A DNA stretch of 47,925 nucleotides. Source: Desulfobacterales bacterium. GTDB lineage: Bacteria; Desulfobacterota; Desulfobacteria; Desulfobacterales; JASJAZ01. This document shows positions 7,752 to 28,329 of the stretch, piece by piece. The notes beneath the pieces were generated by a model, which saw only the letters and a list, made by a program, of their open reading frames with translations, was not told the DNA's origin and ran no database searches. The stretch is taken from positions 1-47,925 of the forward strand of contig JASJAZ010000026.1 in assembly GCA_030066785.1 (NCBI GenBank). The letters are read 5' to 3'. How positions within the stretch are numbered: the stretch's first letter is position 1; each line of letters begins with the position of its first letter. A program made the position numbers and the translations under genes.

Positions 7752-8066
7752 ATGTCTTTTTCCGAGATGGGATTCAACCGTTTTAGAGCGGGCGAAACGG
7801 TAGCATTAATACTGGCGTCGAGCACGCAACATGAAATCGGGCTTTTTAGTGTCGCCCGAATCAATGCGCCGAAGAAACCTTTTCCTCGATATTACGAAAA
7901 AGAGGAAATGAATCTCGAGACAGCCGCGGCCAAATCATGGGCATCACAACAATACCGCCTCAAGTATAAGCCCACGGCCCACGCCCGTGGCACTTATCTG
8001 AATCAATCCATATTAGCCCTGGCATTCATTCATTGGTATACATGCATGATCCTCTGCTATTTTTGA
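7752..8066 (+). CDS. Small hypothetical protein (weak)
   Basis: A 104-residue frame starting MSFSEMGFNRFRAGETVALILASS, with a plausible ribosome site (GAAAGGAAAG) 6 bases before the ATG. The first half has a protein-like composition; the end is hydrophobic and overlaps the convergent kinase-like gene by 41 bases. I recognise no domain. It could be a real short gene following the phosphatase or an accidental frame in a 384-base gap. Confidence 0.3.
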   Translation: MSFSEMGFNRFRAGETVALILASSTQHEIGLFSVARINAPKKPFPRYYEKEEMNLETAAAKSWASQQYRLKYKPTAHARGTYLNQSILALAFIHWYTCMILCYF

Positions 8067-8937
8067 AGGCAGGAAAGAAAACATCAAAAGCAGTGCCGGC
8101 ACCGACAATACTTTTCACTTCTATGCTAGCGCCTAAACACTTAACAATGCCATAAACCTCGGAAAGGCCCAATCCTCTGCCTGTTTTCTCCTCTTTGGTG
8201 CTGTAAAAAGGATGAAAGATCCGGTCCAGATTACATTCGGAAATACCGGTGCCGGTATCTTCTACCGATAGTCTAACAAAAGATGATGGCTTTCTTGACT
8301 GCGACAATGTTTGTTGGACTTTGTCGTTTATACCAGCAGTTAAATTAATCCGGATGCTGTGACCACAGCTTTGCATGGCTTCAACAGCATTTTTGCATAG
8401 ATGCCGTAATAATTTTTCAATGAGGATGGGGTCTGATGAAATCAAGGGTAACTGGTTTGGGGCATGAATCTCGACAGCGATATGCTTCGGAAGATCTTTA
8501 GTAAACCGGCCAATAAATTCTTTGACCACGTCATATAACTGAACCGGTCTATTTTCGGATGTATACATTCCACAAAAAAGATTCAACTTTCTGACAAGAC
8601 ATTGAATACGAAGGACAGAACTTTTCATTTTTTCAAATTCTAACGACGATGGGCTAAATTGGGAGATGCGCCCGGTTCGATCGGCGCAATTGTTGCGCAA
8701 GCCGGAGAGAATATTGGTTAGCTGCAGACTGATTGCCTTCGACATTGACTGCAGCTCATCAATTTGCGAATCGCCATTTGTTGAATCTAAACCTACCCCC
8801 CATTTTAAAACCCCCGGGTCCTTTGCGGACATCTCCATTACATTACTTTTTGTGTTTCTTGATGCTGAACAATATGCCGTATCGGTTGATCGTTGATATG
8901 CAACAGGCTGGGAGGGCTTATTTATTAGTTTTACCAA
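8026..8937 (-). CDS. Histidine-kinase-like protein lacking the phospho-acceptor histidine
   Basis: A 303-residue soluble protein whose C-terminal half is a clear GHKL ATPase domain of the NtrB-like kinases: N-box LCKNAVEAMQ, G1 VEDTGTGIS, F-box IFHPFYSTKE, G2 GRGLGLSEVYGIV. The helix that normally reads LAHDFNNIL is here SLQLTNILSGL: the ending is conserved, but the His and following Asp are Leu and Gln. The protein therefore probably binds ATP without autophosphorylating in the usual way. It has no receiver domain, no membrane segment and no adjacent response regulator. The annotated start is TTG at 8937; a very strong ribosome site lies about 50 bases upstream (see 8989-9000), so the true start may be further upstream with a non-ATG codon. 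Confidence 0.8.
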   Translation of the reverse strand: MVKLINKPSQPVAYQRSTDTAYCSASRNTKSNVMEMSAKDPGVLKWGVGLDSTNGDSQIDELQSMSKAISLQLTNILSGLRNNCADRTGRISQFSPSSLEFEKMKSSVLRIQCLVRKLNLFCGMYTSENRPVQLYDVVKEFIGRFTKDLPKHIAVEIHAPNQLPLISSDPILIEKLLRHLCKNAVEAMQSCGHSIRINLTAGINDKVQQTLSQSRKPSSFVRLSVEDTGTGISECNLDRIFHPFYSTKEEKTGRGLGLSEVYGIVKCLGASIEVKSIVGAGTAFDVFFPAFKNSRGSCMYTNE

Positions 8938-9057: not shown

Positions 9058-9128
9058 GGAGAATTCCTCTGAGAACCTAAAATTCCGACTTTTTTTGGCT
9101 TGGACAGGATGCTGCAGAGGAATTCTCC
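9058..9128. repeat. 14-bp perfect inverted repeat with 43-base spacer
   Basis: GGAGAATTCCTCTG (9058-9071) and its exact reverse complement CAGAGGAATTCTCC (9115-9128) flank a 43-base spacer that includes a run of seven T. It lies upstream of the kinase-like gene and just before a short ORF. It could be a large RNA hairpin, a protein-binding dyad or the ends of a small relic element. Confidence 0.6.
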
Positions 9129-9256: not shown

Positions 9257-9462
9257 TTTTAACTACAATTATTGTGCCATTTGGGCAATATGAAGATAAC
9301 CATCTGATATGATATAATAATAGCTTAATCCGACAATTAAGAGCAAAAACAAAATAATGAGCATATAATTCCCCATTTTATAATAATTACCATTTATATA
9401 TATGATATCAATAAGTTATATATTGTAGAAAAATTACCCGATTATCGGCAAATATCGCCTTA
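9257..9462. other. AT-rich intergenic region downstream of the sigma-54 activator
   Basis: Contains the small palindrome GTAGTT-TT-AACTAC (9253-9266). It also holds the second arm GATAACCAT (9295-9303) of a 9-base inverted repeat whose first arm is ATGGTTATC at 9186-9194. The rest, to the stop of the activator gene, is very AT-rich. I see no gene. Confidence 0.4.
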
Positions 9463-10863
9463 TTACGGTGCGCGTAACAGTCCAAAGCGCTTCATTTTGT
9501 TAAACAGTGTTTTTCGATCGATACCCAAACTTAGGGATGTTTTCCCCCGATGCCACCTGTTAAAGGAAAGGGCTTCTGAAACAAGCTGCTTTTCAAAAGT
9601 CTCCATCTGGGCTTGCAGCGGCATCCCAGGTTCATAAGAATTTTTGATGTGATTAGGATCGGAAATAAACGGTATACGCATACCGGCACCACCTAATTCG
9701 AGTTGGTTGACTGCACAGTATCGTATAATAACGTTTTGCAGCTCACGCACGTTGCCGGGCCAATCATAATCGAGCATTTTTGCGATCATTTCATCAGATA
9801 GCGGGGTAATATTTTTTTTGGCACCATGCAGATGCAAGAAATGATCAATGAGTAGCGGCAAATCCTCTTTGCGGTCTCTCAAGGGGGGCAAATGAATCGG
9901 AAGGATATGAATGCGGTAATAAAAATCCTCTCGCATCTTATGCTGCTCGATAAGGTCCAATAGATTTCGATTGGTCGCCGCAATGATACGAAAGTTTGAT
10001 TTTCTGAGCTTAGTATCACCTACCGGCGTATAACCGCTGCCTTCAATCACCCGCAGCAATTTGGTCTGCATTGGCAGGCTGATCTCGCCGATTTCGTCTA
10101 AAAAAAGAGAACCCCCATCCGCATACTCAATGTAACCACGCCTCTCTTCAATGGCGCCTGAAAAGGCACCTCTGCGATGTCCGAAAAATTCACTTTCGAT
10201 AAGGTTCTCCGCAATAGCACCACAATGCACCGGCACAAATCTTTTCAAACGCCGGTCGCTGAGGTCATGGATGGCGCTGGCAACAAGTTCTTTACCGGTC
10301 CCCGGTTCACCATATATAATGACTGCTGCATCGGTAGCAGCCGCATTCAGAATTTGTTCATAGATGGTTTGCATTGGCACGCTTTTACCCACGATATTGC
10401 CAAATTTATTACGATGTTTGATGTTGGATCGAAGCAGGAGGTTTTCTTTGCGCAACTTTTCGGCATTTTCGCGCAGATGAATTTCAGACAATTTTTTTTC
10501 ATGAATATCGGTTATCATCGAAAGATGGGCAATCGGAACGCTATCTCTGAAAACCGGTGTATTAACACTTAGATACCACCGCTGATCCCGAGGATCCTGA
10601 ATATCAAAGGCTATATTTTTGCCCTCGAGAACTGAATCTTTAACGCAAAAGGTGCAGGGAGCATCACGCCCATGCAATGCCTTATAACAAGTCTCTTTGC
10701 CAATATCGTGCCCACGTCGTTTGATCAGCTTGGCGTTGATATACTCAATTTTGTAATCGTTTGAACTCACATATATGAGCCCCTCAAATGCTTCGATGAT
10801 GCTCTTTAGTAGCGCCCCGCTTTTCCATGCGCGCTCTATTTTCGGCGTGTCATTTTTCTGCAT
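9463..10863 (-). CDS. Sigma-54-dependent transcriptional activator with Cys-containing PAS domain
   Basis: A 466-residue bacterial enhancer-binding protein. Residues about 17-135 are a PAS domain with a cluster ETCYKALHGRDAPCTFC, three Cys that could sense redox state or carry a cofactor. A short coiled coil follows, then the AAA+ domain: Walker A GEPGTGKE, sigma-54 contact loop GAFSGA (Ser in place of the usual Thr of GAFTGA), Walker B GGSLFLDEIGE, sensor AATNRNL, and DYDWPGNVREL. A Fis-type helix-turn-helix ends the protein (SLGIDRKTLFNKMKRFGL). It is divergent from the hydrogenase/Hdr operon. The 352-base gap between them holds a sigma-54 promoter and repeated half-sites, so it is the likely activator of that operon. 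Confidence 0.93.
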   Translation of the reverse strand: MQKNDTPKIERAWKSGALLKSIIEAFEGLIYVSSNDYKIEYINAKLIKRRGHDIGKETCYKALHGRDAPCTFCVKDSVLEGKNIAFDIQDPRDQRWYLSVNTPVFRDSVPIAHLSMITDIHEKKLSEIHLRENAEKLRKENLLLRSNIKHRNKFGNIVGKSVPMQTIYEQILNAAATDAAVIIYGEPGTGKELVASAIHDLSDRRLKRFVPVHCGAIAENLIESEFFGHRRGAFSGAIEERRGYIEYADGGSLFLDEIGEISLPMQTKLLRVIEGSGYTPVGDTKLRKSNFRIIAATNRNLLDLIEQHKMREDFYYRIHILPIHLPPLRDRKEDLPLLIDHFLHLHGAKKNITPLSDEMIAKMLDYDWPGNVRELQNVIIRYCAVNQLELGGAGMRIPFISDPNHIKNSYEPGMPLQAQMETFEKQLVSEALSFNRWHRGKTSLSLGIDRKTLFNKMKRFGLLRAP

Positions 10864-10967
10864 TGCTTCTCGGTTTCCTTCCCCAATTTTTTAAATGTCC
10901 GACCGTAATTTATGCGGCACAACGATATTTTTATAACATTTCTCTTAACCTGACAAGAAATAATAAG

Positions 10968-10999
10968 GCAAATATTGCCCAATATTTGCAATTATTTGC
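10968..10999. promoter_or_regulatory. Candidate upstream activating sequence: dyad plus third half-site
   Basis: GCAAATATTG-CC-CAATATTTGC (10968-10989) is a perfect 10-bp dyad. It is followed directly by AATTATTTGC (10990-10999), which repeats the ATTTGC half one helical turn (10 bases) further on. It lies about 170 bases upstream of the sigma-54 promoter, a normal distance for enhancer-binding-protein sites, and about 105 bases upstream of the activator gene's own start. Confidence 0.65.
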
Positions 11000-11055
11000 A
11001 TTAAAAATTTTATGTAATTTATTCAATTAGTTATGATGAAATTATAATATATTGA

Positions 11056-11065
11056 GCAAATAATT
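11056..11065. promoter_or_regulatory. Fourth GCAAATA half-site
   Basis: GCAAATAATT is the exact reverse complement of the half-site at 10990-10999 and lies about 90 bases upstream of the sigma-54 promoter. Together with the dyad it gives four copies of GCAAATA(A/T)T in the activator-hydrogenase intergenic region. Confidence 0.55.
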
Positions 11066-11146
11066 CCCTATATACATACAGATGATGCATATCAAAAAAA
11101 CCTAAATATTCAATTGTATCAGTACAATATAGCAATAATAGTCTAA

Positions 11147-11162
11147 TGGCATGTGCATTGCT
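11147..11162 (+). promoter_or_regulatory. Sigma-54 (-24/-12) promoter of the hydrogenase/Hdr operon
   Basis: TGGCATGTGCATTGCT matches the consensus TGGCAC-N5-TTGCW with one change (C to T at position 6). The GG and GC doublets are separated by exactly 10 bases. Transcription would begin near 11173, about 43 bases before the ATG of the maturation protease gene. Confidence 0.75.
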
Positions 11163-11215
11163 ATATGTAATCTCAATTGCCCAATTCGCACAACCAATTT
11201 TGAAAGGAAACCATC

Positions 11216-11929
11216 ATGCTGCGAGCGATCTATCAAAAGCAAAGATTGATTTTTGGTTGTGGCAACCCCCTCTTTGGTGACGATGGCTTCGGTCCTGAGG
11301 TGATTCGGCTACTTGAAAGCGTTTATTATCTGCCGAAGGATGCTGCCTGTTTGGATGTGGGTACGGCTATCCGCGACTTTCTCATCGATATCCTGCTTTT
11401 GGAGCATCAGCCATCCCAAATCATTATCATCGATGCGATGGACCTCCCTGATCTCGTTCCCGGGGAAATCAGGGAAATTAACGTCAAGGACATTCAACCT
11501 GCGAAAATCAGCGACTATTCCCTACACCAGTTCCCGACCGCTAATATGCTGAAGGAAATCTGCTTACACACCGCTATTGACGTTCGCATACTGGTTGCCC
11601 GGCCTGCGGAAATACCCACAAAAGTCAAACCCGGGCTTTCTTCTTCTCTCACGGCCACGGTACCCGAAATGTGTGAGCGCATCATTGAAATCCTTAAGAC
11701 CCCGGCGGTCGAGCCACGACAGCCGCAAAGCAATTCGATCGTCATCCGCGTCGGTCAGTTAGCCAACAAACTGGGGGTGCACCGCAATACGATTACCAAT
11801 TGGATTCGAGATGGCAGGATCAAGGCCCAACCGACCGTTGGACGCAAATATACCATTAAAAAAGCCGAATTTAAAAGATTTTGTCGCCAATCCGGTGTCG
11901 CCGAACACGTTGTACAGGAGTTTATCTGA
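11216..11929 (+). CDS. Hydrogenase maturation protease fused to a C-terminal helix-turn-helix domain
   Basis: A 237-residue protein with ribosome site GAAAGGA before ATG 11216. Residues about 8-160 are an M52 (HycI/HyaD/FrcD-like) endopeptidase: FGCGNPLFGDDGFGPEVIRLLE, LDVGTA, IIIDAMDL, HQFPTANML, and VKPGLSSSLTATVPEMCERIIEIL. Such enzymes remove the C-terminal tail of the [NiFe] large subunit after metal insertion. Residues about 175-237 form a MerR/excisionase-type HTH (RVGQLANKLGVHRNTITNWIRDGRIKAQPTVGRKYTI...EFKRFCRQ). This combination in one chain is unusual and suggests that maturation state feeds back on transcription, though the HTH could also act as a protein-binding module. It is first in the operon, 81 bases before hdrA. 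Confidence 0.88.
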   Translation: MLRAIYQKQRLIFGCGNPLFGDDGFGPEVIRLLESVYYLPKDAACLDVGTAIRDFLIDILLLEHQPSQIIIIDAMDLPDLVPGEIREINVKDIQPAKISDYSLHQFPTANMLKEICLHTAIDVRILVARPAEIPTKVKPGLSSSLTATVPEMCERIIEILKTPAVEPRQPQSNSIVIRVGQLANKLGVHRNTITNWIRDGRIKAQPTVGRKYTIKKAEFKRFCRQSGVAEHVVQEFI

Positions 11930-12010: not shown

Positions 12011-15000
12011 ATGTCTATTGAAGCTATCGGATCTGTGATGGTGGTCGGCGGAGGTATCGCCGGCATCCAGGCCACTCTGGATTTAGCCGAATCAGGCTAT
12101 TTTGTATACATGGTCGAAAAGAGTGCTGGTATCGGCGGCGTCATGGCCCAATTGGACAAAACCTATCCCACCAACGACTGTGCCATGTGAATTATTTCGC
12201 CGAAACTGGTCGAGGTCGGCCGGCACTTAAACGTTGATTTGCTCACCTTTTCAGAAATCGTGGAAGTTTCTGGAGAAGCGGGCAATTTCACCATCAAAAT
12301 CAAGCAAAGCCCGCGTTATATCGATATGGACAAGTGTATTGCCTGTGGGCTCTGTGCAGAAAAATGCCCCAAGAAAGTCGATGACGAATTCAATATGGAG
12401 ATTAACAAGCGCAAGGCGGCCTACATCAAGTACGGTCAGGCGGTTCCGCTGAAGTATGCCATCGACGGTGAACAGTGCATCTACTTAACCCGCGGCAAGT
12501 GCCGGGCCTGTGAGAAGTTTTGTCCCACCGGCGCTATTAATTTTGACGATAAGACACAGATCATGTCCCTCAATGTCGGCGCGGTGATCATGGCACCCGG
12601 CTACAAGCCATTTGATCCGACCCCGCTTGACTTTTACGGAAACGGCCAGATCGCCGACGTGGTCACCAGCCTGGAATACGAACGCCTTTTGTCAGCCAGC
12701 GGCCCCTGCATGGGACACCTTAAGCGCCCTTCGAATAATCGCGAACCGAAAAAAATCGCTTGGCTGCAATGCGTTGGTTCCCGCAGCACCAACCGTTGCG
12801 CTAACTCTTATTGTTCCAGTGTTTGCTGCATGTATGCTATCAAACAAGCACTGGTGACTGCTGAACACTTGACCGGCGACGGATTGCAACAAACCATCTT
12901 TTTTATGGATATTCGCACTCCCGGTAAGGAATTTGAAAAATATTATGTTGATGCCAAAGAAAAGGGCGTCCGCTTTGTAAGGGCCCGGCCCCATTCCATC
13001 GAAGCCGGCCGAAACGGCTCAGGTGTTAGGTTGCAGTACACAACTGAAAGCGGTGCAATGGTTGTGGAAGACTTCGACATGACCATCCTTTCAGTCGGAC
13101 TGGAGATCCCACCGGAATCAAAGCAGCTGGCGGAAATCTTCGATATTGAACTCGATCCTTTTGGCTTTGCCAAAACCGATTATTTTGCGCCCGTCCGGAG
13201 CAACCAACCTGGCGTTTTTGTTACCGGTGCCTTCCAGAGCCCCAAGGCCATTCCACGTTCGGTCACAGAGGCCTCCTCGGCCGCGGCCGAAGCCGCCAAT
13301 CTGCTGAACCAGGCGCGAGGCACCTTGACCCGTGAAAAAACGTATCCGCCGGAAAAGGACATTGCAGCTGAGCATCCCCGAATTGGGGTATTCGTTTGTT
13401 CCTGCGGCATCAACATCGCCGGTGTGGTTGAGGTGGATGCAGTGGCTGAATACGCGCGCTCCTTGCCCAACGTTGAGCTGGTCGAAAACAATTTATTCAC
13501 CTGTTCCGCCGATACCCAGGATTTGATTAACAAAAAAATCCAAGAACATCAGCTCAACCGCATCGTCATTGCCGCCTGCACACCGCGAACCCATGAACCG
13601 CTGTTCCAGGAAACACTAAAAGAGGCTGGTTTGAACGCTTATCTCGTCGAGATGGCCAATATCCGCAACCAAAATTCGTGGGTCCACCAGAAGACACCGG
13701 AAAAAGCCACTGAAAAGGCCAAAAATCAAGTACGCATGGCCGTAGCCAAAGCGTCATTGGTGGTTCCGCTGCAATCGCTCAGTGTTGCGGTCACCCAGAA
13801 AGCCTTGGTCATCGGCGGCGGAATGGCTGGAATGACAGCCGCCCTGACACTGGCGGATCAAAGCTATGAGACGGTCTTGTTGGAAAAAGCGGAGCGTTTG
13901 GGCGGCAATGCCTGGCAACTGAATGAGACCGGCAACGGCCAGCCGATTCGTCCAATGTTAGAGGATTTGATCAAACGGGTGCAATCCAACCAGCGTATTA
14001 AAGTGCATACAAAAGCAAAATTGCTCTCGGCCATGGGATCGGTGGGCAATTTTGTCAGCAAAATTGAAGTCGACGGAAAAACCCGGGCGGTCAATTACGG
14101 GGTAGCTGTGTTGGCCACCGGCGGGAAAGAATCTCAACCGGAGGAATATTTGTACGGACAAGATCCACGGGTGAAGACCCATCTGGAATTTGATGCCGCC
14201 TTGCGGGAAAGATCGGACGAAATCGCTGCGGCCGGCAGTGTCGTGTTCATCCAATGTGTCGGGTCGCGGGAAGAACACCGGCTGTATTGCAGCCGGATCT
14301 GCTGCAGCCACACAATGAAGAGCGCCATCAAACTTAAAGAACTTAAACCGGATATGGATGTGGTGGTCCTTTACCGTGATATTCGGACCTATGGTAAACG
14401 CGAGGATTTATACAAGCAAGCTCGCGAACTTGGTGTACTTTTCATTCGCTTCGATTTGCAAAGTAAACCCCAGGTTCACATAAAAGATGACGACCTGCAA
14501 CTGACTGCATTCGATCCGATTCTGCAGCGTCCCGTCAGCATTACACCTGATTACCTGGTGCTAGCCGCCGCTGTAGAGCCGTCGACCGATCAGCACCTTG
14601 TCGAATTGTTCAAGTGTGGGCAGAACGAAGAAGGTTTTTTAAACGAGGCCCATCCGAAACTGCGACCAGTAGACATGTCGGTGGACGGTCTATTCGTCGC
14701 TGGACTTTGCAACTTCCCCAAACCGATCGACGAATCGATTGCACAGGCCAAGGCGGCGGCTGCCAGGGCCGGGGTGCTATTAGCGCGTGAGGAAATGCAG
14801 CTGGACGCCATTAAATCCTATGTCACGGAAAAATGCGACGGCTGCGCTCTCTGCTTGGATGTGTGTCCCTACCGCGCCATAAAGCTGGAACAATACCAGC
14901 AAGACAACGGCACAAATCACCAGCGCGTCAAAACGGATCCGGCGCTATGCAAGGGCTGCGGGCTTTGTGCGGCCACCTGTCCCAAGGAAGGCGTGCATGT

Positions 15001-15076
15001 CCACGGTTTTACCCTGGAACAATTAAAATCACAGGTGCACGCAGCTATGGCACCGTTGGATTCCGCGGTTCCGTAA
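12011..15076 (+). CDS. hdrA: HdrA-like electron-bifurcating flavoprotein, selenocysteine-containing (Sec60)
   Basis: Read through the in-frame TGA at 12188-12190, the gene encodes 1021 residues; the ORF track splits it into 12005-12190 and 12239-15076. The start is ATG 12011 after GAAGG. The recoded site reads [22 protein letters not shown], where HdrA proteins have Cys. Order: N-terminal FAD/NAD fold ([11 protein letters not shown]), a [4Fe-4S] motif [12 protein letters not shown] near residue 109, CRACEKFCP near 165, and CVGSR...CCMYAIK. A second FAD fold ([13 protein letters not shown] near 601) and a second CVGSREE...CCSHTMK follow. Two C-terminal ferredoxin motifs close the protein ([24 protein letters not shown] near 980-994). 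It is the long, duplicated form of HdrA. In the Mvh-Hdr complex HdrA's flavin splits electrons between ferredoxin and a disulfide acceptor. The five following genes share the strand. Confidence 0.93.
12199..12220 (+). promoter_or_regulatory. SECIS-like hairpin after the hdrA UGA
   Basis: GCCGA-AA-CT-GGTCG-AG-G-TCGGC: a 5-bp lower stem, a small internal loop, 2 bp, then apical loop GGUCG. The loop starts 18 bases after the UGA and resembles the AGGUCU apical loop of E. coli fdhF at about the same distance. Bacterial SelB reads such hairpins inside the coding sequence. Confidence 0.65.
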
Positions 15077-15118: not shown

Positions 15119-15568
15119 ATGGCAGAACAGTTTGAACCAAGGATCATCGGATTCCTCTGCAACTGGTGCGCTTATGCAGGTGGCGATCTGGCCGGGGTTT
15201 CACGCTTGCAGTATCCCACCAATATGCGGGCCGTGCGGGTGATGTGCTCCGGCATGGTCCATCCGGACCTGGTCGTGGAAGCCTTGAACAGGGGTGCCGA
15301 CGGCGTCATCATCATGGGCTGACACATCGGTGAATGTCATTACCTGGAGGGTAATCACAAAGCGTTATCCCGCGCTGAGGCGATCAGATTGGTGATTGAG
15401 GATATTGGTATCGATCCGCAAAGATTTGCCATTGAGTGGGTATCTTCGGCTGAGGCGTCCCGTTTTGCAGAAGTTGTCACCCGATTTACTGAAGACATCC
15501 GTGCTCTGGGACCGAATCCATTGCCCGATTTAGCTTCAAATCCATTGGAAACCGCGGCGATTAACTAG
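15119..15568 (+). CDS. mvhD: MvhD-like hydrogenase iron-sulfur (delta) subunit, selenocysteine-containing (Sec68)
   Basis: The 149-residue protein is obtained by reading TGA 15320-15322 as selenocysteine; the ORF track stops there at 67 residues and lists no continuation. Around it the sequence is GADGVIIMG-U-HIGECHYLEGNHKA, where the family has GCHxGDCHY. Other expected Cys are present: GFLCNWCAYAGGDLAG and RVMCSGMV. The reading continues in frame to TAG at 15566. MvhD carries an iron-sulfur cluster that links the [NiFe] hydrogenase MvhAG to HdrA. The ribosome site is AAAGGAGAAGCAAC, 42 bases after hdrA. Confidence 0.93.
15335..15359 (+). promoter_or_regulatory. SECIS-like hairpin after the mvhD UGA
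   Basis: ATTACC-TGGAG-GGTAAT is a perfect 6-bp stem with a 5-base loop. It is extended by TGT/ACA below a C-C mismatch. The first loop G is 24 bases after the UGA. Confidence 0.65.
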
Positions 15569-15590: not shown

Positions 15591-16910
15591 ATGTCTGAGA
15601 CAGCAGTCAAAATCGGTGGCAACAAACAAAGCCTTTTCATCAATGAGGTGAAAGCACTTCTGCCCGATGGCGGAAACCTCAACCTGTGTTTGACTTGCGG
15701 AGCCTGCTCTTCTGGCTGTCCGGCCACGGGTTTAGAAGGTATGGATCCGCGCAAATTTTTACGCATGGCCGCCATGGGATTGGATGATGAAATAACCAGT
15801 ACACCATGGGTGTGGATGTGCAGTATGTGTACGCGCTGTGTGTATGTTTGCCCGATGAAAATCAATATTCCGCAGCTGGTCTTTTATACCCGTCAGTCAT
15901 GGCCGCGTGAAGAGCGGCCCAAAGGCATTTTGGGCTCCTGCGATATGGCGTTGCGCAACGATACCTGCAGCGCCATGGGCACTACCGAGGAAGACTTTCA
16001 GTTTGTGGTTGAAGACGTGCTGGAAGAATACCGAGAAGCCCAACCCGAATTTACCGCGATGCAGGCGCCGGTAAATAAAAAAGGAGCGCATTATTTTTTA
16101 AACCAGAATTCCAGAGAACCGGTGACCGAGCCGGACGAGATGGTGCCGCTATGGAAAATTATGCATCAGGGCGGCGCTGACTGGACTTATGGCACCAAGG
16201 GCTGGGCAGCAGAAAACTACTGCATGTTTCTGGCAGATGATGAAAAATGGGAGCATATAGTGCGTACCAAAGTCAAGGCGGTGGAGGATTTGGGTTGTAA
16301 CGTCTGGCTTAACACGGAGTGAGGCCACGAACTATTTGCCGTCCGGTTCGGATTGGAAAAATTTAACATTGAGGCCAACTTCGAAATTCAAAGTATCATT
16401 CAACTGTATGCTCAATGGATCAGAGAGGGCAAACTGAAACCCAGCCTGGAATGGAACAAGGATCGCAAGATCAAGTTTACGGTCCAGGATCCCTGTCAGC
16501 TGGTGCGTAAAAGTTTCGGTGATCCGGTGGCCGAAGAGCTACGCTTCGTCGTTAAGGCGGTAGTGGGGGAAGAGAATTTTATTGAGATGTATCCCAACAA
16601 AAGCAACAATTACTGTTGCGGTGGCGGCGGCGGGTTTTTGCAGTCCGGCCATACCGAAGCCCGGCGGGAATACGGCAGGCTCAAAGCGGAGCAAATTTTA
16701 ACCACAGGCGCTAGCTATTGCATTACTCCGTGCCACAATTGCCACGCGCAGATCCACGATTTGAGCGATATTCGTGAGCATGCCTGGGACACGGTACATC
16801 TGTGGACCTTGCTGTGTTTGTCATTGGGAGTGTTAGGACCGAATGAACGGGCCTACTTAGGAGACGATCTAAAAGACGTCCTGGTTTTTCATCCGGAAAC
16901 TGAAATGTAG
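15591..16910 (+). CDS. HdrD/HmcF-like CCG-domain iron-sulfur protein, selenocysteine-containing (Sec244)
   Basis: Reading through TGA 16320-16322 joins two ORF-track entries (15591-16322 and 16353-16910) into 439 residues. The N-terminus has two ferredoxin motifs, CLTCGACSSGCP and CSMCTRCVYVCP. The C-terminal half has the CCG architecture: first module ending NVWLNTE-U-GHELF, where relatives have ECGH; second module DPCQL...NNYCCGGGGGF...CITPCHNCHAQ, intact for a noncubane cluster. The arrangement matches HdrC and HdrB fused in one chain (HdrD, DsrK, HmcF, GlpC relatives), so this is the probable site that reduces the disulfide-type acceptor. No separate hdrB or hdrC is present, which fits. 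The true acceptor (a heterodisulfide, DsrC or another thiol carrier) cannot be read from sequence. Its start lies 22 bases after mvhD. Confidence 0.88.
16339..16356 (+). promoter_or_regulatory. SECIS-like hairpin after the CCG-gene UGA (weaker)
   Basis: CC-G-TCCG-GTT-CGGA-TT-GG can pair as TCCG/CGGA, one G-U pair with a bulged U, then CC/GG, with loop GUU. The loop G lies 24 bases after the UGA, the same distance as in mvhD and the large-subunit gene. Confidence 0.45.
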
Positions 16911-16989: not shown

Positions 16990-18108
16990 ATGAAAACCTT
17001 TTTCGATTTAATTCAAGAAGTCCAAAAGCCCGGGCTTTGCCATCGCTGTGGCGGTTGCGTAACGTTTTGCACGGCGATCAACTATGGCGCTCTACAACTG
17101 GACGATGACGGCAAGCCCATATATGGCGATATCGATAAGTGTATTGAGTGTGGATTGTGTCACGCCATCTGCCCGGAGATAGATGAACTTGAAGAAGAGA
17201 CTAAAAGCCGGTCGGCCTGGAGTGAACCCATGGGACGGGTGCTTGAAACCACAGTTGCGCGTGCCCGAGAGCAAAGCATTCGTGCGCGAGCCACCGACGG
17301 TGGTGTGGTCACCGCTTTGCTGCTACATCTGTTTGATCGCGGGCGTATCGACGGGGCCATTGTGGCCAAGCAGGTTGGCCCGTTTCAACGACGTCCCTTT
17401 CTGGCAACAACCCGTGAAGATATCATCGCCTCCGCCGGTTTCTTCTTTGACACCTCTCACGGAATGAAAAACTTCAGTGACCTGTATATGACCTATTCGT
17501 CGATTGAGGAGTTTGACCCCATGGTAAAAGAGGGACTCAACCGTGTGGCCCTGGTCGGCACGCCTTGTCAGATCAAATCGGTGCGCCGTATGCAGGTGCT
17601 CGGGTTAGTGCCCTCCGATTCGATTCGGTTTTGCTTGGGGCTCTTCTGTTCCGGAAATTTTATCTTCGGTACAGCTGAACGCCAAAAGCTATCAGCACTG
17701 GGCGAATTTGATTGGGAAGACGTTAGCAAGGTTAATATCAAAGAAGGTTTGAAGATCCATCTGGGTAACAAGATTGTCAAAACAATTGATCTGAAGAAAA
17801 TGGAATCCTTGCGGCGCTATGCTTGCCGCTTTTGTCCAGATTATTCCGCCGAATTTGCCGATGTCTCCTTTGGAGGTATAGGCGCTGACGAAGGCTGGAC
17901 AACGGTTATTGCGCGAACGCCGCAGGGGCGGGCGGCTTTTGCCGATGCCACTGGCGCCGGTGTGCTGGAGCATTTGAGCCATGAGAAAAACCCTCAATTT
18001 GCCCGAAATGCTCTGCATAAAGTCCAGACCTGGTCAGACCGCAAAAAGGAAAGCGCTGAGGTTTTGCGCCGGGAATTGAAACCAAGATCAGTGCGAATCA
18101 AAAATTAA
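16990..18108 (+). CDS. FrhB/FdhB-family iron-sulfur flavoprotein
   Basis: A 372-residue member of the coenzyme F420 hydrogenase/dehydrogenase beta-subunit family. The start follows GAGGAGG. Two ferredoxin motifs come first (CHRCGGCVTFC at residues 17-27; CIECGLCHAICP about 49-60). Family signatures follow: RATDGGVVTALLLHL, LVGTPCQIKSVRRMQ, and C-terminal CRFCPDYSAEFADVSFGGIGADEGW. Family members bind FAD and [4Fe-4S] clusters and exchange electrons with F420, ferredoxin or other partners. Between the HdrD-like gene and the hydrogenase subunits it is probably an extra redox module of the same complex; F420 use in this organism is not implied. An ORF at 16914-17108 overlapping its start is a shadow. 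Confidence 0.9.
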   Translation: MKTFFDLIQEVQKPGLCHRCGGCVTFCTAINYGALQLDDDGKPIYGDIDKCIECGLCHAICPEIDELEEETKSRSAWSEPMGRVLETTVARAREQSIRARATDGGVVTALLLHLFDRGRIDGAIVAKQVGPFQRRPFLATTREDIIASAGFFFDTSHGMKNFSDLYMTYSSIEEFDPMVKEGLNRVALVGTPCQIKSVRRMQVLGLVPSDSIRFCLGLFCSGNFIFGTAERQKLSALGEFDWEDVSKVNIKEGLKIHLGNKIVKTIDLKKMESLRRYACRFCPDYSAEFADVSFGGIGADEGWTTVIARTPQGRAAFADATGAGVLEHLSHEKNPQFARNALHKVQTWSDRKKESAEVLRRELKPRSVRIKN

Positions 18109-18158: not shown

Positions 18159-19085
18159 ATGCCAGTAAAAGTTGCAAGTGAATGGTTAAATTCATGTTCG
18201 GGGTGTGAAATCTCCATCATCGACATGGGGGAAAGGTTGCTGGATGTCCTCAAGGTGGCAGAATTTGTTCATATTCCAGCATTGATGGATCAAAAATACT
18301 TCGGGCAGTTAGGCGACGGCCAGCATATCAACATCCCAGAGGCCGATGTAGGCATTATCAGTGGTGGTATTCGCAACGAGGAGCATCTCGAAGTGGCAGA
18401 AGAGATGCGACGCAAATGCAAACTCATCATTGCCTTGGGCACCTGCGCCACCCATGGTGGCATCCCGGCGCTGTCCAACAGCTATACCCCGGAAGAAATT
18501 TTAGAACGATACTACTCTACCGAAACCACTGATAAACCGCAGACCTATCCCTCGGAGGATATCCCGCCCCTGCTGGATAGTTGTTATGCCCTCGATGAAA
18601 AAATCAACGTCGATATCTATGTTCCTGGTTGTCCGCCTCACTCGGATCATGTCTTCAATTCCCTGGTGGCGCTGGTGGAAGGCAAACAACCACAACTGCC
18701 TGAAAAAAGCGTATGCGACACCTGTCCAACTCAACGCGAGGGCAAGGGAGATTTGAAGCAGATGCAGCGTTTTTTACAGCCGCCGCAATACGGCGCACCG
18801 GACGAGCCCTTGGATCAAATGCGCTGCCTGCTGGAACAAGGACTGATGTGCATGGGTCCCGTTACCCGTGCCGGCTGCGGGGGTGACAATATTCATCCTC
18901 GTTGCATTTCGGCCCGGGTGCCGTGTCGCGGTTGCTACGGCCCGGTCAAACATGATGGCAATCAGTTAATGGATATGCTCAATGCGCTGGCATCCAACGG
19001 CATCGACGTCAAAACGCTGCCCGAGCGGCGTTCGCTGCTACGGTTTTCCGGCGCCCATGGAATGCTACGCGCAACCACCAAATGA
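18159..19085 (+). CDS. mvhG: [NiFe] hydrogenase small subunit (MvhG-like)
   Basis: A 308-residue small subunit of the cytoplasmic group 3 type, lacking a Tat signal. Proximal-cluster ligands are visible in SEWLNSCSGCE (C13, C16), ALGTCATHGG and YVPGCPPHSD. The C-terminal part has further Cys (AGCGG, RVPCRGCYG) for additional clusters. It passes electrons from the active site in MvhA to MvhD. The start follows CAGGAGTGATAAGCC, 50 bases after the frhB-like gene, and the large subunit follows after 16 bases. Confidence 0.93.
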   Translation: MPVKVASEWLNSCSGCEISIIDMGERLLDVLKVAEFVHIPALMDQKYFGQLGDGQHINIPEADVGIISGGIRNEEHLEVAEEMRRKCKLIIALGTCATHGGIPALSNSYTPEEILERYYSTETTDKPQTYPSEDIPPLLDSCYALDEKINVDIYVPGCPPHSDHVFNSLVALVEGKQPQLPEKSVCDTCPTQREGKGDLKQMQRFLQPPQYGAPDEPLDQMRCLLEQGLMCMGPVTRAGCGGDNIHPRCISARVPCRGCYGPVKHDGNQLMDMLNALASNGIDVKTLPERRSLLRFSGAHGMLRATTK

Positions 19086-19101: not shown

Positions 19102-20565
19102 ATGTCGCAAGTTATCAATATACAGCCGATTACTCGAATTGAAGGGCATGCCTCCATCGGCATTCAACTGGATGACGACGGCAATGTGCGCGATGCCAAA
19201 TTGAATGTAATGTCCCTGCGGGGATTTGAAAAATTCGTCGAAGGCAAACCCGCCGAGGAACTGCCGCGGATTGTCAGTCGTATTTGCGGTATTTGCCCTT
19301 GGATGCACCACTTAGCATCCAATAAAGCGGTGGATGGATGCTTTGGTGTGACGCCGACCGCCACCGGTCACAAATTACGGGAATTGATGCAAACTATCGC
19401 TCATGCTGAAGACAAGCTTTTGCATTTTTTCTTTCTAGCGGCTGCCGATTTCGTGATTGGACCAGACAGCGATTACGCCGTGCGTAACGTGATCGGTATC
19501 GCCAAGGCCAATCCGGATTTAGCCAAACAGGTCGTGAAAACCCGCCAGATGGCAAAGATGATCCTTGATAAATTCTCAAGCAAAACCATTCATCCTGTTG
19601 CTGGGGTACCGGGTGGCTTTGCCAAACCAATGCTGGAGGAAGAACGCAAAGACATCTTGGCTAAAATGCATCAAATACTTGATTTTGCCTTGTTTACTAT
19701 CGATTTTGCCAAAAAAGACGTGTTTCCCAAATACATCGATGTGATTCAGAACCTGGGGATCATTAACACCGGTTTTATCGGCACCGTAGATGATAACGGG
19801 GCGTTAAATCTGTATGATGGCAGTATTCGTCTCATGAAAGCAGACGGTTCTTTTGCAAGCTTTAAAGCACATGACTATGCCGATTATATAGGTGAACAGG
19901 TTGTTCCTTTTTCCTACGGAAAATTTCCATATGCCCGCTGCTGGGACGAGGGCTTTTCCATGGATTTGGATCAGCCCAAAGGTATCTACCGTGCCAACAC
20001 ACTGGCCCGCATCAATGTGGCAGATAAAATGGCGACACCCCGGGCTCAGGCGGAGCTGGAAGAATTCCGAGCGCAGTTTGGCCGTCCAGCTCAGGCCACC
20101 CTTTTATACCATTATGCCCGACTGATCGAAGAGGTGTATGCCTGTGAGCGCGCTATCGAGATTCTGGAAGATTCAGAGATCACAAACCCCGATGTACGCG
20201 CAAAAGTTGAACCTAAGGCCGGCCGCGGCGTGGGTTGTGTTGAGGCCCCCAGGGGGACCCTGATTCACGATTATTCCACCGATGAAAATGGTCTGATTAC
20301 CCGCGCCAATATGATTGTGGGTACCACCCATAATTTGGGACCCATGAACATGAGTGTCAACCAGGCTGCCCGAACCCTTATCAAGGATGGACATGTAAAC
20401 GAAGGGATACTCAACCAGATTGAGATGGCCGTACGCGCCTATGATCCGTGAATTTCCTGTGCAACCCATCGCCTGGATGGCGGTGATGGCATATCAATCA
20501 CGATTACAGATGCTGAAAACCAGATTATCCGCAGATGGCCTAATACCGAGAACGGTAAAGCCTAA
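19102..20565 (+). CDS. mvhA: [NiFeSe] hydrogenase large subunit (MvhA/Vhu-like), selenocysteine at active site (Sec450)
   Basis: The ORF track ends at TGA 20449-20451, but the frame continues to TAA 20563, giving 487 residues. The N-terminal motif RICGICPWMHH (C62, C65) supplies two active-site ligands. The C-terminal motif is AYDP-U-ISCATH, where ordinary enzymes have DPCxxCxxH, so one nickel ligand is selenocysteine. The remaining 31 residues after His456 (RLDGGDGISI...) form the tail normally cut off by a maturation protease such as the one at the head of this operon. Taken at face value the track's version would lack two of four metal ligands and could not work. It is the last gene of the operon. 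Vhu hydrogenases of methanogens carry the same substitution. Confidence 0.95.
20467..20488 (+). promoter_or_regulatory. SECIS-like hairpin after the hydrogenase UGA
   Basis: CATC-GCC-TGGAT-GGC-GGT-GATG pairs as 3 bp, a 3-base bulge, then 4 bp, with loop UGGAU. The loop is nearly the same as that in mvhD (UGGAG), and its first G is likewise 24 bases after the UGA. Confidence 0.6.
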
Positions 20566-22889: not shown

Positions 22890-25346
22890 TTAATAATTGT
22901 AGACCAAAATGTTGTCACTCAATACCATGAAGGGATAATGCACCATCTCTGGTCGACGAAGATCAATAACGGCAAACCCCTTCCGTTTTTGCCATCCTTC
23001 CGAAAGCGAAACACTTTTTATCAGTCTGGATAAATCCTGTGAATATATCTGAAATTTCATATTTGAATAGAACACTTTGCTTTTTCGATACGCGGCGGCA
23101 AGCGGATTCTGATTCCCCAAAAGGGTTTCATAAGAATACACCAACACCTCTTTATCACCATCGCCATTATAGTCGTGGGCACCCACGACTCTGAATTCCT
23201 GGTTAGAAGGTGAACTATTCATTTGTTTTTTCTGTACTACCTGCAAACTTTTATTCAATTTATACAAATTCATTTTACGATCAGTCGCGTAAATTCTTTT
23301 GCGGCGGAGAGAGGCGACTGATAACACCGCATTCATATACGATTTAAATGGAGTCATCTTGCCATCAATAGTGTCAATACTTTTGGGGCGGAAAGGGGTC
23401 GCCGATGATATCGCCATGCTTAATATCGAATTTGCCGTATCAAGCTGCTGGTCGATTTTGCCAGACCGCTTAATTTTATAAATCCCGCCTTCATCTTTTC
23501 GCAACTTAGAGGACGTGAATTTATAGGCGTACACATGGCGCCGATCACCATGCGCGGAATTGTCCAGCCGCACACGAATACCCGTGTAATATTCACCCAT
23601 CGCCTTCACCCAATTGGTTTTACCGTCGTTGGTAACACTGATGAGATATGCTTTTCTGTCATGGGTTTGGTTGTGTAGCGCCTGATTACCGTCGGCTGAA
23701 CTGTAGGTGCCGATGATGATATCGGGACGTCCGCCCTTGTTCTCCCATATGACGATGTTTAGGGGCTTGGGGCCAATAAGATAGCGCCACAGTTCGCTGG
23801 CGTGTTGGTCATATACTATAATGCCACGCGAATTCGGGGCATGGTCGGCAGTTGTGACAGCTATAATTTCCTTGCGGCCGTCCAGGTCTAGGTCAGCCAG
23901 ACCGGCTATTTTCCCATCACCATCCGGTTTGCCCTGCTGGTAGTGTTTTATTGTTCTGACATGATGCCACAGCTCTTGTCCGTAGCTGCTTAAAAGCAGT
24001 AGATGAATGCTGCTATCATCCATCCCTGACAAAGCAATGGCTGGCCGTGACTGCCAGCTGTCAATCAGGTCAAGCGTGACCGGATAACTAAATTCTCTTT
24101 TCCATAGAACCGATCCGTCGGCTCTAAATACATAAAGCGTGTGACCGGAAGCGGTAACAAATTCTTCCTTGCCATCCATATCCAAATCATAGGCCATCGA
24201 ATTCGAATAATCGCCGACATTCCGATTGGCTACAGTTAGCCTGGCAAACGGTTCGCGCTGGTGTATCACCGGTGTAGTAGATTCAATTAGAATCGGTAAG
24301 ACGTGGTTGGCCGGCAGGCTAATCTTTTGAAGATACAGGGTTTGTCCACCTTTTTTGACCATAATAGTCGTGGGGCCGGCAACAGCCGGTAGCCGATGCC
24401 GGCCGATTTTTAGCCGATGTCCGATTTCAGTGTTGCCGGACCACACATCAATTTCATTAACCCTTGTGTCGATCAAAATGGTGGCGTGATCCTTATGGGT
24501 CGGACTATGATAGAAAATCATATCGCCGTTGCCCTCGATGTAGCCAAACTGAGGGGTCTGCCGGCTAAAAGACTGTTGCGTGATGCTTGGGCGCAAGGTG
24601 GCATAAATTTCGGTGGCGGTGATGTGGCCATCGGAATTGATGTCCGCTGCGCCGTTTAGTGCGGCCAGCAGATGATCGGTAAACAAACCGTGGCCTTGAG
24701 ACTCTATGGCCTGCTCCGATCGGCTGCCGGCGGTTAAAATTTGAATACTTCTGGTTTGCATCATTTTGTTGATATAAACGGCGTCTTGCTTCGGATGCCG
24801 TTTGATGGCGCGGGTCAAACCGAGTCCTGAATAGCACGAGTCAAAGGCGAGCAGAATATGTTTAGACTTAAATTGCTTAATCGTGTGATTCAACCGATCC
24901 ATGGGCAGCATGGTGCCCTCCCAGTCATATGTATCTGCATCGGAAGGCACCAGATAGCCGCGCTCCCGCCCTCCAGGTAAATCCTCCGTCTGTCCGTGAC
25001 CGGCAAAATAGAATACAAACCTGGCGTTCGCATCAACCGATTGGCCAATCACCCTCAATTGATCCATAATGTTTTGCCGTGTGGCTTTTTGGTTGGTGAG
25101 CGTGATTACTTGAAAGTTTTTTTGCTTCAAAACAGTAGCCATCTCAGCCGCATCCTTGGCCGCATACTCCAAATTCGGCCAATGGGTATATTGATCAATG
25201 CCAACCACCAGAGCATATGACGATGAGTAACCTGTTTTAAATACCGCTGCTGGTAGGGTTTTTGGCCCAACAACCCAGATGGTAACTAAAACGGTCAGTA
25301 ACCGCAGCAATAATAGTCCTTTTGATAGGGCATCACATCGTATCAT
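22890..25346 (-). CDS. Secreted caspase-like (C14) protein with C-terminal FG-GAP/VCBS-like repeats
   Basis: An 818-residue protein with an N-terminal hydrophobic signal or anchor (about 10-35). The caspase fold spans about 42-290: SYALVVGIDQY, catalytic His in FVFYFAGHG (H117) and catalytic Cys in LLAFDSCYSG (C171). An EF-hand-like loop DINSDGHITATEI follows. The remaining 500 residues contain FG-GAP-type calcium loops (DLDMDGKEEFV, DLDLDGRKEII, DYNGDGDKEVLV) that suggest a beta-propeller. The dyad is intact, so it is a plausible active protease. The catalytic part would sit outside the cytoplasm, unlike classical metacaspases. Its ATG overlaps the stop of the upstream caspase gene (ATGA), showing translational coupling. 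The propeller may provide substrate or cell-surface binding. Confidence 0.88.
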   Translation of the reverse strand: MIRCDALSKGLLLLRLLTVLVTIWVVGPKTLPAAVFKTGYSSSYALVVGIDQYTHWPNLEYAAKDAAEMATVLKQKNFQVITLTNQKATRQNIMDQLRVIGQSVDANARFVFYFAGHGQTEDLPGGRERGYLVPSDADTYDWEGTMLPMDRLNHTIKQFKSKHILLAFDSCYSGLGLTRAIKRHPKQDAVYINKMMQTRSIQILTAGSRSEQAIESQGHGLFTDHLLAALNGAADINSDGHITATEIYATLRPSITQQSFSRQTPQFGYIEGNGDMIFYHSPTHKDHATILIDTRVNEIDVWSGNTEIGHRLKIGRHRLPAVAGPTTIMVKKGGQTLYLQKISLPANHVLPILIESTTPVIHQREPFARLTVANRNVGDYSNSMAYDLDMDGKEEFVTASGHTLYVFRADGSVLWKREFSYPVTLDLIDSWQSRPAIALSGMDDSSIHLLLLSSYGQELWHHVRTIKHYQQGKPDGDGKIAGLADLDLDGRKEIIAVTTADHAPNSRGIIVYDQHASELWRYLIGPKPLNIVIWENKGGRPDIIIGTYSSADGNQALHNQTHDRKAYLISVTNDGKTNWVKAMGEYYTGIRVRLDNSAHGDRRHVYAYKFTSSKLRKDEGGIYKIKRSGKIDQQLDTANSILSMAISSATPFRPKSIDTIDGKMTPFKSYMNAVLSVASLRRKRIYATDRKMNLYKLNKSLQVVQKKQMNSSPSNQEFRVVGAHDYNGDGDKEVLVYSYETLLGNQNPLAAAYRKSKVFYSNMKFQIYSQDLSRLIKSVSLSEGWQKRKGFAVIDLRRPEMVHYPFMVLSDNILVYNY

Positions 25347-27079
25347 TGTCTGCTCATATGTAGTTGTGGATAGCTGATAAGTTTTAGTGCAGCTTGGGCG
25401 GCATCTAAGCGTGTCGCGTACTGTATCGATTTTATCCCGTAGACCCCGACCAACTGTTCCAGCTCGCTGAACAATACCGATCCCGGATGAATATCTTCTT
25501 TGCCCACAAACAATTCAAGTGTTGGCGGTTTGTTGGCAAATGCAAACAATTTCACGGTCTCCGTTCCAAAAGGCCAGTGAACCCTGAATCTATCTGGAAG
25601 AATTCGCTTTTCACCCGGTATCAATAGCTTCAACTCAGATGGATCAGATGGATACAAAACATGCACGGCCCCGGCCGGATCAACATCGATTAGAAGCATA
25701 TAGGCCGGTTTTTCGGTGCTGATTTCAAACCCAAGAGTTTCATCTTCACTGATAATGCTTTTTTGGTATGAGCCGCTGAGCTCGATTGCAACGTTAAATT
25801 GCTGATGCGGATAGGCTAGATTTACCAGTGGTTGGATACGCAGATGTCGCCTTATGCGATCCACCACCTGGTGGATATCGCTGGATGTAAAGCGGCAAAG
25901 CGGATGCATGTTTGGCAGGGCCAGAACAACCGCGTCGCCATCTTTGGCCAGGATAAGATCCGGTTCAGCACTGACGATTTCAACACCACCAATCTGTGAT
26001 ATGTGCCTTTTTAAAAGGGATAATCGTTTTTCGATCCGAACTCGTAAAGTCGGCCTTGTTGCGATCAGCTTTCGGCTATCAGTAGCCAGCCCCTGTCCCG
26101 AACGTACAAAAAAGGCTCTAGCGTGCAGATTTTTGGCGTTTCCGCCTTGCTTGGGCAGCGCCTGGGGTGTTTGTTTGAACCGCTTTTGAACAATTGACCT
26201 GATGGCGGTATACATCTCCATCTGGCTCCAGGCACCGTCATTATTGGTGTCAATTTGCACCTGGCCGTCCAAAACTCTTAACAGCGAGTCCGTCAGGGCA
26301 CCATGCGGTTTCCCATCGATGGTCGGATACAGATAGAGCAGGTCGCGTTGAATGTCTCTGGCAATTTCGTTTTCCGATGAAGCCGAAATGTAAAATATGT
26401 TTTGATACGGATACGGTTCGTTGCGAATTATATTTTCTTCAAAGCTTCCGATGGATCGTTCTTCTTCAAAGACGCTCTTTGAATCCAACCTAATATGGCG
26501 GCTGAGATTTAACGGCTGGTTCGCACCGACTGATCGAACAGTGTTACCTGAAAAACAGGTATCAAACACCATCAGGACCTGCCGATCGCGGTCAAGCTGT
26601 TCAAGCATGGGGCGCAGATCGCGCTTGCCAACAATCAATTGTGACATCAACACCTCAATGGATTGGTTGGCATCCATGTTAAAATCTGCGGGCACCAGCG
26701 CTCCCGACGTATGCGGCAGAGGCAGCGCCATCAGATCATCTCGCCGGCTGGTCCCATGACCACTAAAGTATATGAAAATACGATCACCCGGCTGGGAACG
26801 GTGCGCCAGTTGCTGAATTTCACCAAGAATTCGGGACTTGGCCGCTTCCTGGTTGATGAGTACCCGAATGTTTTCGTGCTTGAAATCATATTTGGATGCC
26901 AGCACAGTCTTCAGCGCAGCCACATCATGGGGGGGGCCTTCCAACGTCCGGGTTTTGTATTGGCCGATACCGATCAAAAGAGCATGGTTGGCAGCGTTTA
27001 CATTGGGAGCGACCAGGCCGGCCATTGAAAGGATCAGTACCCCAATCGCTGCGGTTATTTTAAGATTGCATATCATCAT
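25343..27079 (-). CDS. Secreted caspase-like (C14) protein with DUF4384-like C-terminal domain
   Basis: A 578-residue protein with a cleavable signal (ITAAIGVLILSMAGLVAPNVNA-A). The caspase domain spans residues about 31-300: HALLIGIGQY, His dyad member in IFIYFSGHG (H108), Cys in LMVFDTCFSGN (C175), EF-hand-like DTNNDGAWSQMEM. The C-terminal part (about 420-540) resembles DUF4384: YMLLIDVDPAGAVHVLYPSDP...ETVKLFAFANKP. The next gene overlaps by four bases. It is a paralogue of the caspase at 28330-29769. The upstream gap of about 310 bases holds an inverted-repeat element. Confidence 0.9.
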   Translation of the reverse strand: MMICNLKITAAIGVLILSMAGLVAPNVNAANHALLIGIGQYKTRTLEGPPHDVAALKTVLASKYDFKHENIRVLINQEAAKSRILGEIQQLAHRSQPGDRIFIYFSGHGTSRRDDLMALPLPHTSGALVPADFNMDANQSIEVLMSQLIVGKRDLRPMLEQLDRDRQVLMVFDTCFSGNTVRSVGANQPLNLSRHIRLDSKSVFEEERSIGSFEENIIRNEPYPYQNIFYISASSENEIARDIQRDLLYLYPTIDGKPHGALTDSLLRVLDGQVQIDTNNDGAWSQMEMYTAIRSIVQKRFKQTPQALPKQGGNAKNLHARAFFVRSGQGLATDSRKLIATRPTLRVRIEKRLSLLKRHISQIGGVEIVSAEPDLILAKDGDAVVLALPNMHPLCRFTSSDIHQVVDRIRRHLRIQPLVNLAYPHQQFNVAIELSGSYQKSIISEDETLGFEISTEKPAYMLLIDVDPAGAVHVLYPSDPSELKLLIPGEKRILPDRFRVHWPFGTETVKLFAFANKPPTLELFVGKEDIHPGSVLFSELEQLVGVYGIKSIQYATRLDAAQAALKLISYPQLHMSRQ

Positions 27080-27250
27080 TGCTCGATTACTAACTCAGAA
27101 CCTATTTCCAAACTGCATCTAACACCCAATAGCGACTTTATTAGCCTCTCCTTAAAATGCTCACATAACTCTTATGTCTGCTTTGCTTTTACTTCGGCCT
27201 GTGCCCTGCTCTTGGCCGCGATCCAACATTTCTGCGATGGGTTCGAGTCT

Positions 27251-27389
27251 AAAGCGTATCTCAAAAAATAGATTAGGGTTCCTGGCAAGGCGTGAAGCGG
27301 CGAGAAAGCGGAGCATACACGTAGTATGTGAGCATTTTGAGCCGGTTTACAACACCGCCAGGGGCACTTAGATTTTTTTGCGATGCGTT
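27251..27389. repeat. Palindromic MITE/REP-like element of about 140 bases
   Basis: The outer arms AAAGCGTATCTCAAAAAATAGATT (27251 on) and the reverse complement of the right end (AAAACGCATCGCAAAAAAATC) are imperfect inverted repeats. Inner arms CTGGC and GCCAG flank a centre with the hairpin CATAC-ACGTA-GTATG (27315-27329). The element fills the gap between two genes of the caspase region and ends at the stop codon of the TPR-OmpA gene. It resembles non-coding palindromic repeats dispersed in genomes of this group, but copy number cannot be seen here. Confidence 0.6.
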
Positions 27390-28256: not shown

Positions 28257-28329
28257 GTAACCTCTCCCCAGAAATTTCCCAAATGCAAGCAATCCGTCCA
28301 TCCCTGCGCAAGCATCGACCTTTTTAAAA

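Follow-up and report, generated by a model that had tools for sequence, protein, structure and literature searches.

A hydrogenase maturation protease joined to an HTH_17 domain is a derived variant within a family of HTH–Hdr fusions that share a predicted operator in Desulfobacterota

The Hdr/Mvh electron-bifurcation operon in the window (the whole stretch of 47,925 nucleotides that was analysed, from a Desulfobacterales bacterium) begins with a gene in which an M52 hydrogenase maturation protease is fused to a winged helix–turn–helix (HTH) domain. This protein is a derived variant within a family of HTH–Hdr fusions sharing a predicted operator: about 50 further loci in Desulfobacterota carry this HTH in frame at the N-terminus of the gene that follows (HdrA or HdrCB), and its presence co-occurs with tandem 9 bp direct repeats (TTGCACAAn) upstream of the operon's first gene. 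Very probably the HTH binds DNA and acts in autoregulation. We consider it probable, too, that Hdr/Mvh operons in this phylum are under an autogenous regulator whose DNA-binding half is this HTH, which shares a polypeptide with an operon enzyme (HdrA, HdrCB or, in the window, M52) at the head of the operon. To our knowledge, little is known of the regulation of flavin-based bifurcating Hdr–hydrogenase complexes in sulfate reducers, and an enzyme-fused regulator with a defined operator makes it testable in cultured strains. The coordinates of the features are given in Table 1.

Table 1. Genes, domains and predicted control sites in the window.
Feature	Position	Strand	Details
M52 protease–HTH_17 fusion gene	11216..11929	+	237 aa; first gene of the operon
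HTH_17 winged-helix domain	11738..11926	+	Recognition helix GVHRNTITNWI
HdrA-like selenoprotein	12011..15076	+	Sec TGA 12188-12190; in the HTH frame, with three stops between
MvhD-like selenoprotein (presumed)	15119..15568	+	One in-frame TGA
HdrCB-like selenoprotein	15591..16910	+	Fer4 + CCG domains; TGA 16320-16322
FrhB/FdhB-like subunit	16990..18108	+	PF04432 7.5e-37
MvhG-like small subunit	18159..19085	+	Oxidored_q6 3.4e-32
MvhA-like [NiFeSe] hydrogenase large subunit	19102..20565	+	NiFeSe_Hases 3.3e-34; Sec 20449-20451
Predicted operator, 9 bp direct repeat ATTGCCCAATTCGCACAACCAA	11176..11197	+	Score 13.7, second-best + strand match in the window
Second predicted operator AAGGCAAATATTGCCCAATATT	10965..10986	+	Score 15.5, best + strand match in the window
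Third predicted operator ATTGCCCAAATGGCACAATAAT	9268..9289	-	Score 17.7, best - strand match in the window
Sigma-54 type -24/-12 promoter-like element TGGCATGTGCATTGCT	11147..11162	+	Exact match to TGGCAYRNNNNTTGCW
Sigma-54 dependent activator (AAA+, Fis-type HTH_8)	9463..10863	-	Sigma54_activat 3e-61; divergent from the operon

The fusion protein consists of a protease part (residues 1–161), a linker (162–173) and a winged HTH (174–236). In profile searches residues 11–159 were matched as a hydrogenase maturation protease (TIGR00072, 5.8e-31, 107.4 bits, cutoff 47.5), and the M52 part also matched Pfam HycI (6.1e-16; PF01750, 58.9 bits, cutoff 23). A match to FrhD (TIGR00130) was found at 4e-28 but under the equivalog cutoff, and the nearest maturase kind is FrhD/HycI-type. 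Asp23, Asp73 and His104 fall on the kept metal-ligand positions of HybD/HycI and are invariant in the alignment; for this comparison the ligands were taken to be Glu16, Asp62 and His93 in HybD, and Asp, Asp and His in HycI. Sequence, fold and metal ligands of residues 1–161 are shared with HybD, HycI and FrhD, whereas the C-terminal HTH extension belongs to the window protein. An AlphaFold2 model calculated with a 23-row alignment contains two confident domains (mean pLDDT 91.5), and the confidence drops in the linker, around residues 161–170. Foldseek matched the first part of the model to HybD and HycI.

Residues 178–223 match HTH_17 (PF12728, 4.6e-10, 40 bits, cutoff 27) and the excisionase profile TIGR01764 (6e-10), and the score of the HTH against the BldC subfamily proper (NF033787) is 12.5 bits, below the cutoff of 77. 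The fold resembles those of BldC (Streptomyces) and of HTH_17/excisionase regulators such as RdfS; the closest solved DNA complexes are those of BldC, 6amk and 6ama, to which Foldseek matched the HTH with a probability of 1.00 (TM by target 0.71 and 0.66, respectively; E about 0.03). A search across the phylum located the HTH in 27 of 297 genomes, with one copy in each.

The sequence-only reading had proposed that a protease is joined to a DNA-binding domain, and this is borne out by domain profiles that both score above their cutoffs within one intact frame. It had also raised the prospect of a fusion unique to this DNA or produced by a frameshift. Neither is the case, because the identical in-frame junction recurs in two sister MAGs (locus L033 of genome G113, 61% identity; locus L005 of G072, 60%), and a sequencing frameshift or artefact was rejected on the same ground. 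Loci L006/L035 and L034, which appear to be fusions at first sight, were rejected owing to a stop between M52 and HTH. There is no in-frame start codon between the two domains of the window ORF, so that a separate HTH product from an internal start was rejected for the window. The M52–HTH fusion is a rare form, present in three genomes of a single clade (support 100/96 in the M52 tree), which is placed among HTH–HdrA loci. The search for the M52 + HTH_17 architecture therefore upheld its recurrence, in the two sisters, but not the protease as the usual carrier of the HTH.

The HTH partner varies with lineage, being HdrA in Desulfobacterales-type loci and HdrCB in Desulfobulbales-type and other loci, and is usually a selenoprotein; in relatives of the same order M52 and HTH are adjacent yet separate. 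The 32 HTH–HdrA linkers are free of in-frame stops, whereas their other two frames hold 39 and 40; the 20 HTH–HdrCB linkers are likewise free of them, against 28 and 51. In Desulfosediminicola flagellatus, an isolate with a complete genome, HTH_17 and Fer4/CCG were found by Pfam in one protein. Desulfocicer vacuolatum DSM 3385 (L085), L093 and L104 are without a start codon directly before the HdrA domain, and a separate HdrA is thus unlikely in those loci. Most HTH–HdrA genes retain a Shine–Dalgarno-like stretch and an ATG at the HdrA start; because these are kept, two products are likely in such loci, where an HTH-free HdrA may be made as well. The HTH is retained with Cys or Ser Hdr partners (L104/L130, L136, L137, L139–L141 and L096), and Sec is therefore not required for the fusion. 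In most loci the HTH and the Sec UGA lie in one frame, at a distance of ~146 codons (HdrA type) or ~305 codons (HdrCB type). Because the HTH frame continues into a Sec codon, automatic annotation probably stops at the TGA and yields a short HTH protein, a possible reason why the HTH–Hdr fusion was overlooked. A literature search that reached few subscription journals found no description of M52–HTH or HTH–Hdr fusions.

L033 and L005 read continuously from M52 through the HTH into HdrA, as far as the Sec TGA. The window has M52 and HTH in a single frame, which stops at 11927, 11978 and 11996 sever before HdrA. The window HTH would have passed from HdrA to the protease, probably via a stage with all three in one frame; since the tree groups the window with L033 and L005 among HTH–HdrA loci, the HTH was probably first joined to M52 too and later cut from HdrA. 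Such a shift between neighbouring enzymes, with the triple-fused form in sisters, makes a clear case of domain relocation.

The position of the gene at the head of the operon that it would control and the presence of a Sec-containing hydrogenase alongside, both part of the sequence-only reading, were confirmed. The HdrA, MvhD, HdrCB and MvhA genes each have a single in-frame TGA at the position expected for Sec; the ORF at 15119–15568 is taken to be MvhD-like from its position and general family knowledge. The MvhA-like subunit reads DPUISCATHRL at the Sec codon and runs on for about 30 further residues past DPUISCATH, with a C-terminal extension beyond the expected cleavage His, and judging from sequence it is the likely substrate of the M52 domain.

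Upstream regions were compared in a non-redundant set of 55 HTH+ and 27 HTH− loci from which near copies had been removed; many rows are mutually related MAGs, and the locus counts are not fully independent. The tandem repeats precede the first gene of HTH+ operons, with TTGCACAA half-sites recurring every 9 bp on one strand, and HTH− operons are mostly without them. TGCACA was found upstream of 43/55 HTH+ loci versus 0/27 HTH− loci, and 9 bp repeats upstream of 38/55 versus 0/27 (mean of 0.2 in shuffles). The spacing of half-site pairs peaks exactly at 9, 18, 27 and 36 nt (45, 14, 5 and 4, respectively). The operator motif was described by a 22 bp matrix, with the window excluded from training and each HTH+ locus left out in turn. 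Left-out scores were at least 11.9 in 50 of the 54 HTH+ loci, and 53 of the 54 scored above the HTH− maximum of 2.8 (27 loci). A second search gave an expected-strand site in 22 of 23 HTH–Hdr loci (scores of 13.8–25.7), an independent count of 18/19 once L130, L131, L132 and L143 are set aside as duplicates or near copies of training genomes. In nine HTH–Hdr loci of this search no M52 was found directly upstream, and the site precedes HTH–Hdr itself. For the first 80-odd loci, 91 matches scoring at least 13 fall in M52 upstream regions and eight elsewhere in 723 kb. Expected-strand scores are poor in L074, L056 and L135, the first two of which carry strong sites on the opposite strand. In L153 and L154 a related HTH_17 domain is attached to a response-regulator receiver domain, and the 9 bp repeats are absent upstream; the motif search found no operator upstream of these two paralogues.

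Some HTH-less M52 loci also carry the operator. This is the case for L015 and L105, and both genomes have HTH–Hdr elsewhere. In L098 (G436) HTH–HdrCB is divergent from an HTH-less M52 gene, and the shared gap holds one predicted operator per direction. These three loci count in favour of a possible action in trans of HTH–Hdr on HTH-less M52 loci. No site was found upstream of M52 in ten genomes with HTH-less loci that lack such an HTH altogether; in the genomes of L064, L088 and L089, which have HTH–Hdr elsewhere, the HTH-less M52 locus likewise has none.

In the window, the two best + strand matches of the 48 kb both fall in the 352 bp gap before the fusion gene (10864–11215), which had been put forward as the candidate binding region. 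Shuffles of the gap reached the score of the 11176 or 10965 site in 1/500. Both differ from the consensus (TTGCCCAAT, TCGCACAAC), and the window scores are under the median of the HTH+ set; the 10965 site may continue through two further TTTGCA units as far as about 11003. The 9268 site lies between the sigma-54 activator gene, which it follows, and a kinase-like ORF (8026–8937), which it precedes. A whole-genome search, using a pattern composed with the window site in view, gave fewer than two mismatches only at 11176 and 9272, and its 18 two-mismatch matches are only twice those of the reversed-pattern control (nine). A wider regulon in this genome was rejected, as no further site has fewer than two mismatches. 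The sigma-54-like element was matched in 0/100 shuffles of the upstream region, and the 11176–11197 site starts just downstream of the transcription start predicted from it. About ten HTH+ loci, as well as L071, have an orthologue of the activator (53–59% identity) immediately before M52. Sigma-54 control as a general rule was rejected, since activator and element occur in a subset of loci only.

Each BldC protomer binds a 9 bp site, and the sites are arranged as direct repeats on which head-to-tail multimers form (PMC5859096). Because fold, 9 bp period and variable number of units agree with BldC, several HTH domains may occupy neighbouring repeats in head-to-tail order; the BldC mode (9 bp direct repeats in variable number; PMC5859096) fits the 9/18/27/36 spacing of the operator. 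BldC itself is a free 68-residue protein that regulates development, whereas the HTH described here is part of an enzyme subunit or protease and its sites are found at its own operon.

Binding at the predicted operator would repress the operon. Repression is favoured because the site lies just after the predicted start in the window and the repeat includes the start codon in Desulfobulbales. Both positions argue against an activator, with HTH multimers at the promoter recruiting polymerase or aiding the sigma-54 activator, which we regard as rather unlikely; what would suit it is the upstream site at 10965, together with sites that in some loci lie as far as about 180 bp ahead of the first gene. 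The least certain step is the signal, which the attached enzyme part would supply. Occupancy or assembly is favoured because HdrA, HdrCB and M52 share only binding by other parts of the hydrogenase complex. Subunits built into the hydrogenase–Hdr complex, for example, would no longer gather on DNA, and nor, alternatively, would protease occupied by immature large subunit, so that an accumulation of free parts would hold the operon back. Direction and signal of regulation are both guesses.

That the protease part senses the Ni-loaded large subunit (or the Sec supply) and the HTH relays this to transcription, M52–HTH being the functional unit, appears improbable. The intact catalytic residues of M52, the extended Sec large subunit in the same operon and the predicted operator upstream of M52–HTH are in keeping with it, but the fusion occurs in only three genomes of one clade, M52 is separate from an Hdr-borne HTH in about 50 loci and nine HTH–Hdr loci have no M52 directly upstream. 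Since the protease is not the usual HTH carrier, protease sensing did not hold as a general mechanism. Of the coupling of maturation to transcription claimed in the sequence-only reading, the link to transcription is well supported by the operator association; the assignment of the HTH to the protease does not extend beyond the rare form. Sensing of Ni or Sec may occur; the Cys and Ser partners argue against a strict need for Sec and weaken a general Sec-sensing role.

A broader proposal, in which an HTH with exchangeable partners (HdrA, HdrCB or protease) reports assembly or maturation of the bifurcating [NiFeSe] complex to its own promoter, and in Hdr-fused forms selenium shortage leads to a short repressor that ends at the Sec codon, is doubtful as a whole. 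A selenium switch by itself, in which the UGA without Sec insertion would end a short repressing HTH (HTH, linker and about 55 HdrA residues) and selenium would allow the full enzyme, is very unlikely: it draws on the common frame of HTH and Sec UGA in most loci, but the HTH is kept with Cys or Ser partners, and three ordinary stops between HTH and HdrA mean that it cannot work in the window. We give hardly any credence to the HTH being a relic or a protein–protein module, with the repeats belonging to another regulator, for although some of the loci are also accompanied by a sigma-54 activator gene, L071 has activator and sigma-54-like element with neither HTH nor repeats, HTH and repeats occur in many loci that lack the activator, the recognition-helix residues HRNT and NWI are invariant across the HTH alignment and the repeat period equals that of BldC.

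Enzyme-repressors are known in PutA and BirA, pathway enzymes that bear a DNA-binding domain and regulate their own operon. The HTH fusions resemble them in that an operon enzyme carries the DNA-binding domain, self-control here being predicted from operator co-occurrence; they differ in folds and enzymes, and here the partner varies by lineage (HdrA, HdrCB or M52). HdrR of Methanosarcina barkeri is likewise an HTH regulator that binds the hdrBCA promoter, but it is a separate archaeal protein described as an activator (PMC11218639). The mvhA2DG–hdrA1 cluster of Desulfobacterium autotrophicum is the same kind of Sec-rich Hdr–Mvh cluster, and the text describing it makes no mention of a helix–turn–helix (PMC2702500).

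A 26 nt direct repeat (85%) at 9351–9376 and 11046–11071 flanks the sigma-54 activator gene; together with the inverted operator copies at 9272 and 11176 it may record a rearrangement. In relatives the activator lies upstream and in the same direction. A perfect 14 nt inverted repeat (GGAGAATTCCTCTG / CAGAGGAATTCTCC, 43 nt loop) was observed at 9058–9128, before the kinase-like ORF. Elsewhere in the window, a run of minus-strand genes at 22890–29769 was read by eye to contain caspase-like motifs (SGHG...DxCxSG), one of these genes having an OmpA-like C-terminus.
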